From NCBI GenBank assembly GCA_007859745.1, contig SMLU01000001.1, positions 2,976,001 to 3,040,000 on the forward strand: DNA of 64,000 nucleotides, written 5' to 3'. The notes beneath the pieces are model-generated. The model did no database searches and was not told the origin of the DNA. It saw nothing but the letters and a program-made list of their open reading frames with translations. Position 1 is the first letter of the stretch, and each line of letters begins with the position of its first letter. Below, in pieces: positions 11,276 to 36,362 of this stretch. The DNA comes from Phycisphaerae bacterium RAS1 (GTDB taxonomy: Bacteria > Planctomycetota > Phycisphaerae > UBA1845 > Fen-1342). Made by a program: the position numbers and the translations under genes.

Positions 11276-11964
11276 AAGACGGCGGTGGACGCTCCGTTCG
11301 CGCCGCGACGGTAGGTAGGGCAGGGCGCAAGCGGCTGCGCCTGGCGGAGAGGTGTCCCCACCGACGCACGAAGCCGCGATTTCTCGACAAGCGGCGTGCT
11401 TCGCGTAATCGCGTGAGCATGCAACCCGCCGCTGTCTCTGCGCCCCCCCGCATCCGGCGCTGGGTGCGTGACACCTCTGGCGGACCGCACAACACAAACG
11501 GCGGCGGCGTTTTCAGCCCCGTCAGGGGCGAAAGAGTAAAGCCCACGGCGTAAGTCGTGGGGTAGCGGCCCGCGGCGTAGGGCAGCCCCGGAGGGGCGAA
11601 ACGACCGGGGCGCCTCCCGCGTCCGTCGCTTCTTTCGCCCCTACGGGGCTGCGTATTTCGAGGATACGGAGGTTCCCGGCCGCGATCCCACGGCTTGCGC
11701 CGTGGGCCTTACTCTTTCGCCGCTCCGCGGCTGCCTGGCGTGGTCGCGGTCGTCGGTCCAAACGAGGTCAAATGCGAGCCAAAACTGTCACGCACCTTCC
11801 GGCGCTTCGCAGCGCTGCGTTGGGATGTACTCGGGCGTACGGAATCGCTATGCTCGCTGATTGTGGCAGCCGGTGACACCGCGTCGCAGTCGGTTCGGTC
11901 GCAATTCTATGCGTTCACGTCGGCGGGCGCGCCGCCCTGCCCGGAGCAACGGGAGCCTGGGACG
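11276..11964. other. 689-base spacer with palindromic repeats (family H)
   Basis: No supported gene. Between about 11515 and 11745 several copies of a unit combine GCCCCTACGGGGCTG or CCCCGGAGGGGCGAAA with short phrases such as AAGCCCACGGCGTAAG, in both orientations. Related copies flank the TPR gene at 34.85-34.94 kb and lie at 37.69-37.75 kb and 56.93-57.0 kb. The remainder shows no recognisable feature. Confidence 0.6.
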
Positions 11965-17174: not shown

Positions 17175-17531
17175 GACAAACACCTGTCGCCGCCGGCGGG
17201 GGACTCGCGCGGCCGTTAGACCCGCTCGCGCGGCTTAATGCTGCGGCTCATCCAGCGTATCGACCGGCCGGCCGCGGTGCGTTAGTCGCGCCGGCTTCCG
17301 GTCATGGCGCGCTGCGATCGGCGATGGACCGTGAACAGGGGGCCGGGTGGGGGCCAGGGGAGAAGTGTTTATCAGTCGTCCGCGGCCGGCGGCGGACGGC
17401 GTGCTGCCATAGTTCACCTCATCCCCTCCGCATTTCGATACTCCCATTGTCTCCCGGCGCCCGGCCATTCGCCGTGGGCGCGCCCGGGCGACGTCCCCGG
17501 CCCGTCAGCAGTCCGTGTTGGAGCGCAACGA
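17175..17531. other. 357-base spacer, nothing recognised
   Basis: A divergent spacer between the PilZ gene and the first metzincin lipoprotein gene. It is GC-rich, and I see no repeat family member, tRNA or clear promoter. Confidence 0.4.
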
Positions 17532-18785
17532 ATGCAGTGCGATGTGACGACGAAGCTCGTCCGGCGGTTCCGTGGCATGCACCAGCGGCGCAATCGTCAC
17601 GTGACTGCGTGGTTCATGGCGGTTGCGGCGGCGCTGGCCAGCGGTGGGTGCCCCACGGACAACCCGGCTGCATCGCTGCTCGATGCGCTGACCGGCGCCG
17701 ACAGCAGCGCGGACGCCGTCGCCGGGGCGGTCGTGGACACTCCGCGAGCGGCCGCGAATGGTCGCCTGGTGGGCAACGTGTCGCCGTCGACGCGCTACGA
17801 GACCTTCAGCCTGGGCAGCGGATCTGCGGGCGATGAGCTGACCGTCGCCGGTCCGGACGAAGAGGGATCGGCCTTTACGGTCGTGATGTTCGACGAGGAC
17901 TTCGACCTGGTGCGCCGCGCCGTGGTATCCGGCGGGGCGCCGCTGGTGCACGTGCTGCGCGAAGCGACGAGCCAGGTGTACGTCGGCGTGGCGGTGGCCT
18001 CCGGGACGACCGGCGGCTCGTTCGACATGCGCGTTTCGAGGCGGACCGGAGTGGCCGTCCCGTCGCCGCGCGGACAGTCCGTTTACCTCAACTTCGCCGG
18101 CGGCCAGGGCGTGCAGGTGCACACGCGGCCGGCGGTTTCATTCTCGGCGTTTCGCGGCGACATGCTGGGCGACGCCTATGCCGATGCCACCGCGAGCCTG
18201 AAGCGCGCCATTCTCGAAGCCGTGGCGCTGGACTATCGCAACTACGACGTGACGATCTACACGTCCGACGGCCCGCCGCCCAGCGGCGCCTACTCGACGG
18301 TTCACTTCGGCGGCGACGACGAGGGGTTGCTTGGGCTGGCTGACAGCGTGGACCAGTACAACGAGCGGCCGGGCGAAGACGCGATCATCTACGTGGGCAG
18401 TTTCGCCAACTTCGCGACGATGGGGCTGAGCGTGGATGAGCTGGGGCTGATGATCGGCAACGTCGCCAGCCACGAGCTGGGACACCTGCTCGGCCTGTAC
18501 CATACCAAAGACCCGGACGATCTGATGGACACCACCGGCAGCGCGTGGGACCTGGCCGAGGACCAGGCCTTTTCGCGTGCCGCGCTCGAGGCGGCCGTGT
18601 TCCCCACCGGGATGGAAAACTCACCCGAATTGCTGAGACTCGGCGTCGGGCCGGCGAAAAACGCAAGTTTGAAGTTGAAAACGCCGCCGCTTGGGCTGAA
18701 AATGGAGAGGCGCGCCGCGATCCGCCGCCTGGTCAATAGCGAGATGCCTCACTCATGCGGGACATGCCTCCACCTCGACGACTGA
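17532..18785 (+). CDS. Metzincin-type zinc metalloprotease lipoprotein (first of a tandem pair)
   Basis: A 417-residue protein. The start ATG at 17532 (MQCDVTTKLV) lies after GGAG; a Met at 17577 is possible. A lipobox, ALASGG|C40, predicts a lipoprotein. Residues about 85-175 resemble a pre-peptidase beta-sandwich. The catalytic region has the full HELGHLLGLYH motif (first His about 314) and a following DLMDTTGS that can serve as the Met-turn. The phrases VYLNFAGGQGV and YSTVHFGGDDEG recur in its downstream neighbour, so the pair arose by duplication. It is probably an envelope-anchored protease of unknown substrate. It overlaps the next gene by 31 bases. Confidence 0.8.
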   Translation: MQCDVTTKLVRRFRGMHQRRNRHVTAWFMAVAAALASGGCPTDNPAASLLDALTGADSSADAVAGAVVDTPRAAANGRLVGNVSPSTRYETFSLGSGSAGDELTVAGPDEEGSAFTVVMFDEDFDLVRRAVVSGGAPLVHVLREATSQVYVGVAVASGTTGGSFDMRVSRRTGVAVPSPRGQSVYLNFAGGQGVQVHTRPAVSFSAFRGDMLGDAYADATASLKRAILEAVALDYRNYDVTIYTSDGPPPSGAYSTVHFGGDDEGLLGLADSVDQYNERPGEDAIIYVGSFANFATMGLSVDELGLMIGNVASHELGHLLGLYHTKDPDDLMDTTGSAWDLAEDQAFSRAALEAAVFPTGMENSPELLRLGVGPAKNASLKLKTPPLGLKMERRAAIRRLVNSEMPHSCGTCLHLDD

Positions 18786-20074
18786 GCCTGACGCTGATCC
18801 GCAACCTGAAACCGAACGCACCGACGCTGCGACGGCTGCCCGCCGCGGCGCTGACGGCTGCCGCGGGGTTTCTACTGAACTCCGCCGGCTGCCCGCCGGT
18901 AACGCCGACGCCGCCGGATGACAGCGGACTGCCGTTCCTGGATCAGGACGGTAACTTCACGTTTGACAAGGCCACGCCGGTGGCCCTGCAGCGCAGCTCG
19001 ATCGCGTTTCGCGGACAGGTCAGCGGCAGCGACGACCTGGACCTGTACAACATCGGCGAGCTGAAGGCCGGGGACGGCATCACGGTCGATGTTCAGTCTG
19101 ATGGCGGCGACCTGGATTGCGTTCTGGCGCTGCTGGACTCGCGCCAACAACTGATCGCGTTCAACGACGATCGCATCCCGGACGGCAGCGACCTGAACCC
19201 GCGGCTCTCAATCACGCTGCCCGGTGGGCAGAGCGGTTTTTTCATAGGCGTGACGTCGTTTCCGGGCAGCACCGGCACCGGCAAGTACACCATTACGATT
19301 GACGTCTCTCCAGACGGCGATACGCCTTCCGGGACGCCGCAGGTGGTCTATCTGGATTTCCGCGGCGGGGAGGGCATCGAGGTTCCCAACGTCGGCACGT
19401 TCACGCTCAAGCCGCTGGACGCGTCTGATTTCGGCTCTGGCTTCGCGGGGAAGACGGCGGCGATCGCCTCGGCCATGGCAGCCGAGGTTCGCGACGCCTA
19501 CGCCGGACTGAACCTGAGCGTCATTACGTCGGACGAGCGTGACACGCCGCCCTCGGGCGACCACTCGACGGTCTTTTTCGGCGGCTTCGACGAACGGGCC
19601 TTTGCCATTTCCGAGAGCATCGATACCTTCAACGCCGACAAGAACGATCGGGCGATCGTCTTTACCGAGAGTTTCGGCGGGCGGGCGTTCTCGAAGACGC
19701 CGACGCAGGATGAGCTGGTGCAGGCCCTGGGCAATACGGTGGCACACGAGATCGGCCACCTTCTGGGGCTGGTGCATACGGCTGACTGTGCCGACCTGAT
19801 GGACTCGACGTGCGGCAACAACCGCATTCTGGAGCCGCAGGCGTTCAAGAACGGCGTGCTCGATCCGATGGTGTTCCCGGTGGGATCGCAGGACAGCGAC
19901 GAGCGGCTGGCCTGGATTCTCGGCGCGTCCGACACCGCTCGCGGCAAGCCGAGCGCCCGATCGCTGGCGGCCGGCGCGGCGGCGCCGGCGGCTCGCTCGG
20001 CGCTGGAGCCGCCGCGCTGCGCCTGCCGCAAGCATGCGGGCCACGCACACGTCGCGGTCGCGCCGACGCACTAG
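18755..20074 (+). CDS. Metzincin-type zinc metalloprotease lipoprotein (second of the pair)
   Basis: A 439-residue protein starting at ATG 18755 inside the end of the previous gene; a second ATG lies at 18764. A lipobox-like LLNSAG|C follows a hydrophobic stretch. A pre-peptidase C-terminal (PPC) type domain occupies about residues 75-190 (SGSDDLDLYNIGELKAGDGI, DCVLALLDS). The protease region has HEIGHLLGLVH (first His 331) and DLMDSTCG as Met-turn. The shared order of lipobox, beta domain, VYLDFRGGEGI, STVFFGGFDE and zinc motif shows homology to the first gene. The C-terminal 45 residues are Ala/Arg-rich with a Cys/His cluster. It is co-transcribed and probably coupled with the upstream gene. 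Confidence 0.8.
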   Translation: MRDMPPPRRLSLTLIRNLKPNAPTLRRLPAAALTAAAGFLLNSAGCPPVTPTPPDDSGLPFLDQDGNFTFDKATPVALQRSSIAFRGQVSGSDDLDLYNIGELKAGDGITVDVQSDGGDLDCVLALLDSRQQLIAFNDDRIPDGSDLNPRLSITLPGGQSGFFIGVTSFPGSTGTGKYTITIDVSPDGDTPSGTPQVVYLDFRGGEGIEVPNVGTFTLKPLDASDFGSGFAGKTAAIASAMAAEVRDAYAGLNLSVITSDERDTPPSGDHSTVFFGGFDERAFAISESIDTFNADKNDRAIVFTESFGGRAFSKTPTQDELVQALGNTVAHEIGHLLGLVHTADCADLMDSTCGNNRILEPQAFKNGVLDPMVFPVGSQDSDERLAWILGASDTARGKPSARSLAAGAAAPAARSALEPPRCACRKHAGHAHVAVAPTH

Positions 20075-22210: not shown

Positions 22211-23905
22211 CTACTCCGGCCCCAGCAGCTTTGACAAGTCCGCCCCGAAGTCCTCGCGCAGCTTCTCCATCGCGCGCGCCTCGATCTGCCGCACGCGCTC
22301 CTTCGAGACGCCCAGGCGCTTGCCGATCTGCTCCAGCGTCTGCGGCTGGCCGTGATCTTCCAGTCCGAAGCGCTGCCGGAGGATCTCGCGGGCGCGTTCA
22401 TCCAGGCACGCGAGCATGTCCTCGACCTTGCGCCGCAGGGCGGCGAGCTGATCGTCCTCCGCCTCGGGCTCGCTGGGCAGGGCGACCGAATCGAAAAGCT
22501 CCTCCTGGCCGGTCCGGTAGCGATCCTGGTGGTGCCGTTGCTCGGGGATGGTGCGGGCGAAGTTCTTGTTGATGGCCCACCAGGCGTAGGTGCTGAACTT
22601 ATTGCCGCGCGAGTAGTCGAACTTGTCCACCGCCCGCATCAGCGACACGTTGCCGTCGCTGATCAGCTCGAAGAAATCGTGCACGCTGCTCAGGTGTTTC
22701 TTGGCGGTGCTGACGACCAGGCGCAGGTTGGCCTGCGTGATCTGCTTCTTCACGTCCGCGGCCTGCGCGAGCAGCGCGTCGATCGCGTCCAGGTCGGCCG
22801 GCGTGGATGCGTCCGGATCGAGCGCCTCGCGCAGCTTTTCCGCGCGGAATCGCAGGAAGTTCATCTTCCGGAACAGCGCCGCCTCGCCCTCCGGCGTGAG
22901 CAGCGGGATGCGAAAAAGCTGCTGCAGGTAGGGCGGCAGGTCGCGCGGAATGCGGCGGTTGGTCTCGAGCGGCGCGTTGGGCTGGCGCACCGCCGGGCCA
23001 TTCAGGATTTCGTCCTCGAGAAACGCGTCTTCGAACTCGTCACTGGGCATGAACTCGATCGGCCGCGACTTCAGCTCACGCGCCTTCATCTGCGTGATGG
23101 TCTGGTAGATCCAGGCGATCGGCCGGCTGAAGCGCTCCGCCAGCGCCTCGACGCTCGCGCCGTCGAGGTAGGCTTCCCAGACGGAGAGCCGCACGTCGTC
23201 GGCCGCGACCGTCAGCGTCGAGCGATTGAAGATTCCCGCGGCCGGGTGCGCGTCGTCGTAGCCCTTCAGCAGCAGGCGGATAGTCTCGACGGCCCGGCCG
23301 GTCTCGGCGGCGATCGTGCGCGCGACGGCGTTGGCCGTCTTCTGACCCAGCTCGACCAGCGCCTTGGCTCGGGCAATGATGACCTCGCGCTCGTCGCGCG
23401 TCAGTTGCGAGAAACTGCTGCCGCGCTGGATCAGGTCGGCGTTGTGGGCCACGAAACGCCGGATGGAACGATCGGTGAAGAGCAGGCGCGTGCGGCGGTC
23501 GGCGAAGCGGAACTTCCAGCCGATCAGCCCGCGCCGCCGCCAGCGGAAGATGGTCTTGGTGCTGACGTCGAAGCGCTCGGCCAGCTCGGCGACGCTGAAG
23601 ACCGGTCCGGCCCATTCGTCGACTCGGATTCCCGCGTCTTCGGACAGGTCTTCGGCCAGCGCGGTGAGGTCGGCGATCAGGTCGTCGAGCTCGATCAGAT
23701 GCGCGTCGCTCGTGTCCGACGGGGCGCCCGGCGCGCGGAAGCCGGTCAGGGCGTGGCGGACGAAGTCGTAGGGGAAGGACTTGCCCGGCTCGAGCAGAGT
23801 AAGCACGAACTCGATGTTGAAAAGCTGCCGCAGACGCAAGCGCTTCGGGCCGCGCAGGAGCTGCGTGGCGAGGTCCTCCAGCAGCAGGGACTGATAGGCT
23901 TGCAT
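22211..23905 (-). CDS. Sigma-70 family RNA polymerase sigma factor with N-terminal helix-turn-helix domain
   Basis: A 564-residue protein. The start chosen is ATG 23905 (MQAYQSLLLEDLATQLL), where planctomycete relatives begin; the frame extends to 23995. Residues 1-95 are a family-specific region. Residues about 102-155 (FSVAELAERFDVSTKTIFRW) form a MerR- or excisionase-like helix-turn-helix, followed by more helices. The C-terminal half is a standard sigma-70: region 1.2 near 350; region 2 with ISDGNVSLMRAVDKFDYSRG and FSTYAWWAINKNFART; region 3; and region 4.2 (TLEQIGKRLGVSKERVRQIE). It directs promoter recognition, probably as an alternative sigma, since the N-terminus is unlike RpoD. No anti-sigma gene is adjacent. 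Confidence 0.88.
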   Translation of the reverse strand: MQAYQSLLLEDLATQLLRGPKRLRLRQLFNIEFVLTLLEPGKSFPYDFVRHALTGFRAPGAPSDTSDAHLIELDDLIADLTALAEDLSEDAGIRVDEWAGPVFSVAELAERFDVSTKTIFRWRRRGLIGWKFRFADRRTRLLFTDRSIRRFVAHNADLIQRGSSFSQLTRDEREVIIARAKALVELGQKTANAVARTIAAETGRAVETIRLLLKGYDDAHPAAGIFNRSTLTVAADDVRLSVWEAYLDGASVEALAERFSRPIAWIYQTITQMKARELKSRPIEFMPSDEFEDAFLEDEILNGPAVRQPNAPLETNRRIPRDLPPYLQQLFRIPLLTPEGEAALFRKMNFLRFRAEKLREALDPDASTPADLDAIDALLAQAADVKKQITQANLRLVVSTAKKHLSSVHDFFELISDGNVSLMRAVDKFDYSRGNKFSTYAWWAINKNFARTIPEQRHHQDRYRTGQEELFDSVALPSEPEAEDDQLAALRRKVEDMLACLDERAREILRQRFGLEDHGQPQTLEQIGKRLGVSKERVRQIEARAMEKLREDFGADLSKLLGPE

Positions 23906-23978
23906 TCGGCACACCTGGCAGGGCAGACGATATTGATTATCGTCATCGCCTCGGCGCGGGTCAACGGGAGCGCCTGTT

Positions 23979-24073
23979 CGAACCCGCCGCGGCAAGCGGC
24001 GGGTTGACGTCCCCGGCCGGTGTGGTCGTGCTTGCGTACGAATGTCAACCCGCCGCGTGGCGCGGCGGGTTCG
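23979..24073. repeat. Dispersed inverted repeat (family F)
   Basis: It starts CGAACCCGCCGCGGCAAGCG GCGGG and ends CGCGTGGCGCGGCGGGTTCG: outer arms are complementary, and each arm is itself a hairpin. Similar elements lie at 27974-28068, 42878-42983 and 60711-60805, so the unit is about 95-105 bases. Confidence 0.85.
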
Positions 24074-34530: not shown

Positions 34531-34922
34531 GCGGGCTCCTTGCGAGGGAGACGAAGTCGGGCGGGCATTGTAGCGGGCGGGCGGGGGGATCAAGCGGGCG
34601 CTGGGGGCGGCGGTTCAAGGTGCGCAGGTGCGCGAGGTCTAATTGCGCACCTTCGGCGGGCGCGGTTGGGCGGGGCGGTCTTATCGGGCGGTTGGGTGCG
34701 GTTGGCGGCTGAATGCGCATCTTGAGGCCCCGGTTGGCGGGCGCGCGGGGTGCGCCCGCATATAGGATAGCATGGTATTGTAGTAATTCAAGAACGGCGG
34801 GGGTGCTGTGGGAAGGTGGGAAGGTGGGAAAGTGAGAGCGTCTTTCTTTGGCCCCTCCGGGGCTTGGCGGGGAGAAGGGCGGGTTTCCCACGGCTGACGC
34901 CGTTGGCTTTATTCTGTCGCCC
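34531..34922. other. 392-base spacer, low complexity plus a family H repeat
   Basis: 34560-34760 is a G-rich low-complexity run. At 34800-34830 GGGAAGGT repeats. From about 34845 to the TPR stop at 34923 lie the family H phrases GCCCCTCCGGGGC and GCCCCTACGGGGCTGG. No gene is seen. Confidence 0.55.
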
Positions 34923-36362
34923 CTACGGGGCTGGTTGATCGGGGGGCAGGCGGTCGAGGCAGGATTGCACTTTGGCTTCCTCGGGCTTCATTCCCACTTT
35001 TCTGAAGATGTCGCGTGCCAGCGTCCAGAGGCGGCGCGCTTCGGCGAGTTCGGCACGCGCCTCGTAGGTTGCGCCGAGGTTTGCATAATCGCGGGCCATG
35101 CCTTCAAGTCGGCCCAGTTTCTCGTTAATTTCGAGCGCCTTGCGGTGCATCCGCTCGGCTTCGTCCAGATCGCCGAGCTTCCGGAAGATTAGGGCGATAT
35201 TGCCGTACTGGCCGGCCATGCCTTCGAGCCAGCCGAGCTTCTCTTCAATTTCCAGCGACTTGCGGTGCATCCGCATGGCTTCCTCCAGCTCGCCGCGCCT
35301 ATCGTAGATCAGGCCGAGGTTGCCGTACTCGCTGGCCATGCCTTTAAGTCGGCCGAGCCGCTCTTCGATTTCCAGCGCCTTGCGGTGCATCCGCTCGGCT
35401 TCGTCCAGGTCGCCGCGCTTTCGGTGGATCAGGCCGAGGTTGCCATACTGGTTGGCCATGCCTTCGAGTCGGCCGAGTTTCTCGGTGATTTCCAGCGCCT
35501 TGCGGTGCATCCGCTCGGCTTCTTCCAGGTCGCCGCGTTTCTGGTAGATCAGGCCGAGGTTGCCGAGTGCGGTTGCGACCGTGTTCGGGGAGTCCAGCGA
35601 TTCACCAATCCTGATTGACTGTTCGCGGACGCGGATGGCGGCGTCGAGGTTCCCGACCATGTGGTAGAGGAATCCAAGCTCATCCAGCCAATACAAGACA
35701 AATGGCAGAAGTTCTTCCTTCGGCGGGTCGCCCGCGTCCTTGAGGCGCTGCTCCAGCTCGGCGATGCGGAACTGCTTGGCGGTGGCGTCCAGGTTGGACG
35801 CCCAGTCGATGTCGTCAAAGTGCTCCAGCGGAGCGGGCGGAGCTCCCGTGACCGTGTCGATGACGAACTCGAAGCGGTGGCGAACCAGCGACCAGAAATC
35901 GCGCGCATGCCGCGAGAGCAGCGCCGCGCCGTACTCCGGCAGCCAGATGAGGATGGGAACGGGAAACACATCACGCCAGCGATCGCGCGACGCGTTCAGA
36001 ACGTGTAGCGCGCTTCGTAAGGGATCGTCGCCAGGCAGGCTGGTCGCCAGGTCGGCTGCGCCCGGCAGCGACTTCTCGAAGTCAACGATGAACAACGCTC
36101 GTCTCCCGACGTGGGCGGCGTGCTTGCTCGCGAAGGCGAAGAGGTCGGTCGTGGAGGGGGGGACGCTCAGCGTCTCGACGCCGGGGTGAGAGCGCGCCAG
36201 CTCGCCGATCAGGTGGTCGCGCAGCGGCGGGCTATTGCAAACGGCGATGCTGAAGGAAGACTCGCCGGCGGCAATGTCGAGCATTCGGCGCAGCGCGGCA
36301 AGCTCGGCGGCCTGGCGGTCAACCTCGATTCCGGTCTGAAAAGCCTGTGCCTGCGTCGTCAT
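34923..36362 (-). CDS. TPR-repeat protein with degenerate NTPase-like N-terminal domain (partner of the ATPase)
   Basis: A 479-residue protein; ATG 36362 overlaps the ATPase stop (ATGA). Residues about 25-190 resemble a P-loop fold without a Walker A motif: the strand FSIAVCNSPPLRDHLIGELA, a Walker-B-like RRALFIVDFEKSLPG, then PILIWLPEYGAALLSRHARD FW. Residues about 245-460 carry five near-identical 40-residue TPR units (for example YGNLGLIYDRRGELEEAMRM), coded by 120-base DNA repeats. The same arrangement recurs, to my knowledge, in cyanobacteria and planctomycetes beside an AAA ATPase. TPR arrays of this type serve as ligand sensors in STAND proteins. The stop codon lies within a family H repeat. 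No nuclease or toxin domain is visible. Confidence 0.8.
   Translation of the reverse strand: MTTQAQAFQTGIEVDRQAAELAALRRMLDIAAGESSFSIAVCNSPPLRDHLIGELARSHPGVETLSVPPSTTDLFAFASKHAAHVGRRALFIVDFEKSLPGAADLATSLPGDDPLRSALHVLNASRDRWRDVFPVPILIWLPEYGAALLSRHARDFWSLVRHRFEFVIDTVTGAPPAPLEHFDDIDWASNLDATAKQFRIAELEQRLKDAGDPPKEELLPFVLYWLDELGFLYHMVGNLDAAIRVREQSIRIGESLDSPNTVATALGNLGLIYQKRGDLEEAERMHRKALEITEKLGRLEGMANQYGNLGLIHRKRGDLDEAERMHRKALEIEERLGRLKGMASEYGNLGLIYDRRGELEEAMRMHRKSLEIEEKLGWLEGMAGQYGNIALIFRKLGDLDEAERMHRKALEINEKLGRLEGMARDYANLGATYEARAELAEARRLWTLARDIFRKVGMKPEEAKVQSCLDRLPPDQPAP

Follow-up and report, generated by a model that had tools for sequence, protein, structure and literature searches.

Sequences upstream of a promoter are as a rule recognized by dedicated activators and not by the alternative sigma factor itself, and to our knowledge the promoters of Planctomycetota have been little studied. 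Sigma-70 factors recognize the -12 base through residues 437 and 440 (Escherichia coli numbering) and the extended -10 element through region 3. Changes to this plan are documented in cyanobacteria, where a survey of modular sigma-70 factors reports families lacking region 3, region 2 or region 4 and others with additional domains (PMC11119718). For the DNA-binding protein BldC, the structure report describes Arg30 and Lys26 as touching bases and Thr27, Thr29 (a phosphate contact) and Trp31 as among the backbone contacts, and notes that few of the contacts made by BldC, or by classical MerR proteins, are specific to a base (PMC5859096). Here we analyze a gene in a 64,000-nucleotide stretch of the Phycisphaerae bacterium RAS1 genome (contig SMLU01000001.1, positions 2,976,001 to 3,040,000; hereafter the window) whose product combines features of both kinds of protein. 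From sequence comparisons, we give an even chance to its being a planctomycete alternative sigma factor, usually present in single copy, that bears its own upstream DNA reader.

A sigma-70 family protein with a BldC-like N-terminal module

An original prediction, made from the letters of the window alone, placed a sigma-70 factor with an N-terminal helix-turn-helix (HTH) extension at 22211-23905. These are exactly the limits of a minus-strand open reading frame (ORF) with an ATG start, and its product carries both kinds of domain. It belongs to the sigma-70 superfamily by the NCBIfam superfamily model TIGR02937 (114.5 bits, cut-off 42.9) and matches Pfam Sigma70_r2 at residues 391-448 (49.8 bits, cut-off 24; E = 2.9e-13) and Sigma70_r4 at residues 498-551 (74.3 bits, cut-off 24.1; E = 5.2e-21). 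Of 40 near genomes, 37 encode a full-length relative with 41-64% identity (38 of 41 once the genome of the window is counted), which argues that the fusion is more than chance. The extension itself is about 320 residues long rather than the 350 first proposed, because sequence resembling sigma region 1.2 begins near residue 322 and because, in the 60 listed of 85 matches to solved structures, the best-aligned part begins at residue 289 at least.

The predicted MerR-like domain was likewise recovered, although not as a single domain: the extension consists of an orphan domain (D1), a winged HTH (HTH1) and two further HTH-like units (HTH2 and HTH3), giving D1 and three HTH-like units in all (Table 1). 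The HTH singled out originally corresponds to residues 103-122, and residues 103-154 exceed the thresholds of two Pfam models, MerR_1 (23.0 versus 21.6 bits) and HTH_23 (38.5 versus 24.6 bits). When a profile of the extension was compared with the PDB, the first match was 2lvs, near HTH3 (8.4e-06), and the second was BldC, over HTH1 (6amk, 0.00037; 6ama, 0.00056); Foldseek returned no PDB match to the extension at E ≤ 0.001. Structural comparison of HTH1 with VIA-align gave Z scores of 5.6-6.9 against terminase, BldC and MerR-type domains, with 5.7-5.8 for the MerR-type chains 5d90 and 3gpv. By the MerR_1 score and the fold match, HTH1 thus has the winged HTH that defines the MerR family; the dimerization helix and effector domain of that family are not seen in AlphaFold2 (AF2) models, where two more helical HTH-like units come after HTH1 in place of a long coiled-coil helix.

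HTH1 conserves residues that contact DNA in BldC. We aligned 60 members (the window protein and 59 of the 80 named loci that ranked best among 541 confirmed candidates). All 60 carry R121 at the position of BldC Arg30, Lys or Arg 117 at that of Lys26, T118 at that of Thr27 and W122 at that of Trp31, so that each of these four contact residues has its counterpart; the Thr29 position varies (F, S, C, R or T). Among 10 deep branches with an intact sigma half, R121 is present in nine, W or Y at position 122 in all 10 and K at position 117 in eight. The invariance of T118, R121 and W122 in the 60 members suggests a constant DNA site.

The sigma half lacks region 3 and has altered -12 readers

Comparison of the 60 members with 30 RpoD proteins of relatives revealed that the sigma regions are not the standard ones originally supposed. 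None of the 60 members has residues in the alignment columns occupied by region 3 of RpoD, a region whose presence is a criterion for groups 1-3 of the sigma-70 family, and the window protein has no Pfam match to Sigma70_r3. The -12 readers have been replaced: position 437 (E. coli numbering), Gln in RpoD, is Lys in 42 members and Arg in 18, and position 440, Thr in RpoD, is Ala in 59 of 60. Position 434 is Ala in every member versus Trp in RpoD. Other motifs are retained, including FSTY (F in 59/60), Trp433 (60/60) and a -35 helix that reads KERxRQ in members versus RERxRQ in RpoD. The region 1.2-like segment gave a weak Sigma70_r1_2 score (14.4 bits, cut-off 22), and the phmmer alignment with SigA starts at residue 324.

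The RpoD of the window's genome is a separate, 577-amino-acid protein. At E ≤ 1e-40, the RpoD model finds a match in 40 of 41 genomes, above its own cut-off in 32; the sole genome without one (G029) is 67% complete. In a tree of sigma domains, the family grouped with short planctomycete sigma factors that lack the HTH block, apart from RpoD/RpoS-like proteins, with a support of 94/93 that falls just under the star threshold in a tree including one very long branch. One 5.5-Mb genome (G000) has 47 Sigma70_r2 matches and only three region 3 matches above the cut-off.

Orthologs with a decayed sigma half keep the N-terminal module

The phylum was represented by 392 genomes, the window's own included, and at most six candidates from each were scored. 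A match to the N-terminal module at E ≤ 1e-12 was present in 90 of them, and 39 of these 90 proteins were read. The choice was not random and favored proteins with a weak or absent full-length match or on a deep branch: it comprised 26 proteins of the window's class (all those of families f9, f12, f15 and f16), one from genome G324, the 10 intact deep branches and two proteins with D1 only. We scored 20 sigma and 13 N-module key residues, chosen from invariants of the family with these decayed proteins left out.

Among the 39 proteins read, 27 have a decayed sigma half and are referred to here as ex-sigmas. Of the 20 sigma key residues they retain 1-6, whereas eight core members have all 20 and the 10 deep branches with an intact sigma half have 8-20; of the 13 N-module key residues the ex-sigmas retain 6-13 and those deep branches 8-13. 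Region 4 aligns over fewer than 16 residues in seven ex-sigmas (six of the seven from f12, and G324) and is degenerate, without KERxRQ, in the other 20. Despite this decay, R121 is kept in 26 of the 27, K or R at position 117 in 24 and an aromatic residue at position 122 in 22. That the BldC-type Arg survives in 26 of 27 proteins speaks for a role in DNA binding that does not require sigma activity, and the ex-sigmas of f9, f12, f15 and f16 are probably plain DNA-binding regulators. The notion that the extension is an extra DNA reader is supported by its fold, its BldC-type contacts and its survival in ex-sigmas, the last of which suggests that the fused module reads DNA in its own right.

The boundary between intact and ex-sigma proteins is not sharp, as G167, classed as intact, has only 8 of the 20 sigma key residues and looks half decayed. 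On a tree of N-modules, parsimony needs three changes of the sigma state, in either direction, and starred branches force two of them; the tree was built by a quick method and has several long branches. The halves also come apart in other ways. Short paralogs match the window protein only from about residue 240-280 on, and in genomes G101 and G170 (loci L264 and L263) 370-amino-acid proteins join D1 directly to a region 3-less sigma with no HTH block, from which we conclude that D1 is a separable domain.

A proposed bipartite promoter and its alternatives

The reading that we prefer, as yet unproven and no better than evenly balanced, is that one chain acts as both sigma factor and upstream activator at a bipartite promoter. 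On the evidence of sequence, regions 2 and 4 keep motifs for core binding and for reading the -35, -11 and -7 positions, region 3 has been lost and the -12 readers have changed, and the N-terminal winged HTH retains residues that touch bases and backbone in BldC. We infer that the N-terminal module would bind a specific DNA site that lies upstream of the promoter or overlaps it and that the tether would offset weak core-promoter recognition, such that only promoters with both elements fire. A broader version, which we hold more tentatively and at somewhat short of even, is that this initiation factor, spread through the phylum, recognizes an upstream element with three HTH units acting in cis and a reduced core promoter with its region 3-less sigma, and that in several lineages the sigma half was lost, two or three times, to leave a free-standing transcription factor.

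Several observations weigh against the bipartite reading. Where region 4 can be aligned (20 of the 27 ex-sigmas), its median identity to the window protein is 28%, compared with 30% for HTH1, and part of the ex-sigma sigma half may still be under constraint. HTH3 has a median identity to the window protein of 19% in ex-sigmas and 25% in deep intact branches. With VIA-align, HTH2 and HTH3 gave Z scores of about 6 against many unrelated HTH proteins, indicating generic folds only, and because a Z below 8 may represent merely a common arrangement we claim no more for them than an HTH-like fold. The short paralogs without the HTH block remain sigma-like; 302 of the 392 phylum genomes have no N-module match at E ≤ 1e-12; and one near genome that is 97% complete (G027) has no N-module among the matches listed, which implies that the gene is not universal. 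Finally, retention of the module could reflect autoregulation or repression instead of promoter choice.

This last possibility leads to one of the two strongest rivals, the other being an autoinhibitory gate. The protein could do two separable jobs, as a sigma factor and, through its N-terminal module, as an independent repressor or autoregulator, with halves that do not cooperate at one promoter. Both the decay of the sigma half in ex-sigmas and the absence of the HTH block from the short paralogs and from the D1-sigma proteins of G101 and G170 fit such a division, but the full-length fusion recurs across the phylum, which favors a coupled function, and the leader found upstream of the gene in some relatives (see below) resembles an RNA stem of variable spacing more than an operator, although only 1 of its 17 pairs covaries. 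We regard two uncoupled jobs as unlikely, if worth serious consideration.

The gate is rather improbable in our view. In that model the N-terminal module would resemble region 1.1 or a fused anti-sigma factor: D1 and the HTHs would fold onto sigma regions 2 and 4 or onto core polymerase and inhibit the sigma until a signal or a DNA site sets it free. The existence of a separate RpoD in the window's genome is compatible with a gate, as are an acidic linker between the module and the sigma half (median isoelectric point [pI] 4.7), the acidic D1 of the window protein (pI 4.67) and the D1-sigma proteins without an HTH block. However, D1 is not acidic throughout (pI 4.39-10.0 across members), and a pure gate should vanish as the sigma half decays, yet D1 and HTH1 are kept in the 27 ex-sigmas. 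A nucleoid-type or architectural binder that merely localizes the sigma half without promoter specificity would suit the very basic HTH1 and the few base-specific contacts made by BldC and classical MerR proteins (PMC5859096), but we consider it highly improbable since the invariance of T118, R121 and W122 in the 60 members suggests a constant site.

If the bipartite reading is correct, a conserved sigma factor that contains its own upstream readers would set promoter specificity in a different way, and lineages that lost the sigma half would be a natural record of a sigma factor becoming a regulator. Orthologs with a decayed sigma half can be compared directly with intact ones to tell the two functions apart, and the analysis names a concrete, testable regulator in Planctomycetota.

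Features of the gene and of the N-terminal module

Table 1. Positions of the gene, its predicted domains and a promoter-like site in the window
Feature	Position	Strand	Basis
Whole gene, encoding a 564-amino-acid member of the sigma-70 family with a predicted DNA-binding module at its N terminus	22211..23905	-	ORF, Pfam/NCBIfam, orthologs
Promoter-like site TTGACC-17-GATAAT, 5' of the ATG	23936..23964	-	Consensus scan only
D1, orphan helical domain, residues 1-95	23621..23905	-	AF2 models
HTH1, MerR/BldC-type winged HTH, very basic, residues 101-155	23441..23605	-	Pfam, PDB profile, fold, contact residues
HTH2, HTH-like helical unit, residues 169-223	23237..23401	-	AF2 model, fold comparison Z ~6, generic
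HTH3, HTH-like helical unit, residues 231-285	23051..23215	-	Pfam Mor under cut-off, 2lvs profile match, fold Z ~6, generic
Sigma region 1.2-like, residues 322-361	22823..22942	-	Weak Pfam Sigma70_r1_2; phmmer alignment to SigA
Sigma region 2, residues 385-456; W434A, Q437K/R, T440A (E. coli numbering)	22538..22753	-	Pfam; 30 RpoD compared
Short low-confidence linker replacing region 3, residues 457-484	22454..22537	-	Alignment gaps 60/60; AF2 predicted local distance difference test (pLDDT) < 50 at 454-483
Sigma region 4, residues 498-551, -35 helix KERxRQ	22253..22414	-	Pfam; RpoD RERxRQ compared

An alternative upstream start codon, TTG at 23995, precedes the promoter-like site at 23964-23936, making the ATG the better start. 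That site was the only one of its kind between 21300 and 24300, compared with a mean of 0.2 in shuffled sequences.

The AF2 model built from the 60 aligned sequences had a mean pLDDT of 87.3 and a modest predicted template modeling (pTM) score of 0.53, and a model of residues 1-306 alone reached 90.8 and a still modest 0.65. HTH1 has a pI of 12.0 in the window protein and a median of 11.57 in the aligned members. Residues 1-95 of the window protein have no Pfam match apart from a weak Sigma70_ECF stretch (65-121) that is under the cut-off.

We considered whether HTH2 and HTH3 might be a copy of sigma regions 3-4, an idea that profile comparison did not support: against RpoD regions 3/4 the probability was at most 8.5 for HTH2 and for HTH2 and HTH3 together, and up to 39.7 for HTH3. 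Comparison of the HTHs with region 4 of their own family gave 30-86, values that unrelated HTHs might equally reach. VIA-align pairs HTH2-HTH3 with Thermus SigA over 103 aligned residues at a root mean square deviation of 17.8. Searched singly at E ≤ 0.01, the N-modules of the 60 members matched Sigma70_r4 in 21 cases, Sigma70_r4_2 in 27 and Sigma70_r3 in three (positions not shown); in the window protein the Sigma70_r4_2 match falls on HTH1.

Distribution of the family

The original suggestion that relatives exist in planctomycetes was confirmed by the full-length proteins of the 37 near genomes and by the N-module matches in 90 of the 392 phylum genomes. A full-protein match at E ≤ 1e-60 was found in 68 of the 392. 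All of the 80 named loci (the best 80 of 541 candidates) have planctomycete titles except L105, titled only "bacterium". The N-module is present in 39 of 40 other genomes of the window's class, which we take to be Phycisphaerae from how near relatives are titled. Each of the 90 genomes gave a single match except G384, in which it is split across two contigs. Among the near genomes, three (G005, G007 and G012) have a second copy, and the three without a full-length match are a fragmented one (G020) and two (G026 and G027) with the sigma part only among the matches listed. Mobile or viral spread was considered and set aside: there was no N-module match in plasmid or phage records, and in viral contigs none of 58 pattern hits was confirmed.

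Gene neighborhood and upstream leader

In the window the gene follows ORFs that we named pstSCAB-like from reading them. We rejected a conserved link between the sigma gene and a Pst operon on comparing 81 loci with 8-kb flanks where available, as no window neighbor clusters with other loci and only clusters overlapping the sigma gene are common. Elsewhere the context is more regular: in 17 of the 80 named loci (L061, L062, L072, L075, L076, L079, L082, L084, L090, L097, L099, L101, L103, L105, L109, L111 and L113) the gene lies directly 5' of tRNA-Thr, -Tyr, -Gly, -Thr, tuf and tRNA-Trp, and the conserved clusters further downstream are secE, nusG, rplK, rplA and rplJ (one example of each scanned). 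Of the 25 loci titled Planctomycetia that have 3 kb or more downstream, 14 show this arrangement, as do three loci without a class title and no Phycisphaerae-titled locus. A link to rRNA was given no weight; rRNA lies upstream in just 3 of the 80 loci, two of them in one family.

A Rhodopirellula baltica study lists RB12251 (567 amino acids, pI 9.4, "RNA polymerase specialized sigma factor") as repressed under heat, cold and salt, in a table of repressed genes that also holds ribosomal genes (PMC2754498). Four Rhodopirellula/Stieleria-type orthologs have 556 amino acids from the chosen start and pI values of 8.96-9.06, and RB12251 is probably an ortholog, judging by length, pI and name. From the tuf-region context and the repression of RB12251, we would hazard, as a weak guess, a growth-related role near growth and translation genes, with the caveat that inertia alone can preserve gene order.

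Upstream of the gene, 33 of 81 loci have a divergent neighbor of about 450-500 amino acids some 0.6 kb away (for example L095, 5742-7103, minus strand); the one example scanned had no Pfam match at 1e-5. An autoregulatory operator was sought and rejected, there being no motif common to all upstream stretches. Nine of 86 stretches, from eight genomes (loci L043, L045, L046, L052, L053, L054, L055, L012 and L022), contain a leader, AGCAACTnnGRTCGGTCG ... CGACCGA, about 50-140 bases 5' of the sigma gene, whose 3' arm reads CGACCGA..AGYTGC and is followed by a GCGGG/CCCGC hairpin. In L052, L053, L054 and L055 the loop CCATCTGG is complementary to CCAGATGG at the start codon. Among the matches listed, the exact arms occur once each in 7 of 41 genomes, always directly 5' of the sigma gene, and not in the window's genome. 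The spacing of the arms varies (52-65 bases) and one of the 17 pairs changes on both sides, with three types, which favors an RNA stem over a phased operator. The leader looks like a cis-regulatory RNA; none of five loci scanned had an Rfam match to it.

Two further features of the window were recorded. Acido-Lenti-1 RNA has two matches above the Rfam gathering score, at 11687-11732 and 34887-34932 (plus strand), and two adjoining ORFs at 17304-20074 (plus strand), alike in layout and each with an HE.GH-type motif, resemble tandem secreted metalloproteases.

Comparison with known systems

According to the original prediction the mechanism is not known to have been described, and we did not find this architecture in the open-access literature searched, a scope outside which most subscription papers lie. 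The best NCBIfam match is MzaA, the sigma-70 factor of the MZA system (NF041931), with 155.4 bits. This is far below the model's 800-bit cut-off, so the protein is not an MzaA, and the best stretch, residues 329-456, lies in sigma regions 1.2-2, outside the N-terminal module. The short planctomycete paralogs (for example C1:29387 and C1:1258699 of G000), with which the family grouped in the sigma-domain tree, share its region 3-less sigma core and match neither D1 nor the HTH block.

Like the group 1 and 2 sigma-70 factors (RpoD, SigA and RpoS), the family has a region 1.2-like segment, a non-conserved region, region 2 and a -35-reading region 4, but it differs from them in lacking region 3, in its changed -12 readers and in its 320-residue DNA-binding extension. 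With the extracytoplasmic function (ECF, group 4) sigma factors it shares regions 2 and 4 on a short linker and the absence of region 3, whereas the RpoD-type -35 helix KERxRQ and the N-terminal module set it apart, as may the region 1.2-like sequence, which scores weakly in Pfam but aligns with SigA in phmmer. HTH1 agrees with the BldC/MerR-type winged HTHs (6amk, 6ama) in fold and in DNA-contact residues; BldC, however, occurs on its own as a protein of 68 residues and multimerizes head to tail, while in this family a single copy shares its chain with two more HTH-like units and a sigma factor. The modular sigma-70 factors of cyanobacteria are alike in having lost regions and gained domains, although the part of that survey available to us shows no comparable DNA-binding extension (PMC11119718). 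Region loss and domain gain are thus known kinds of change in sigma factors, as reported there.
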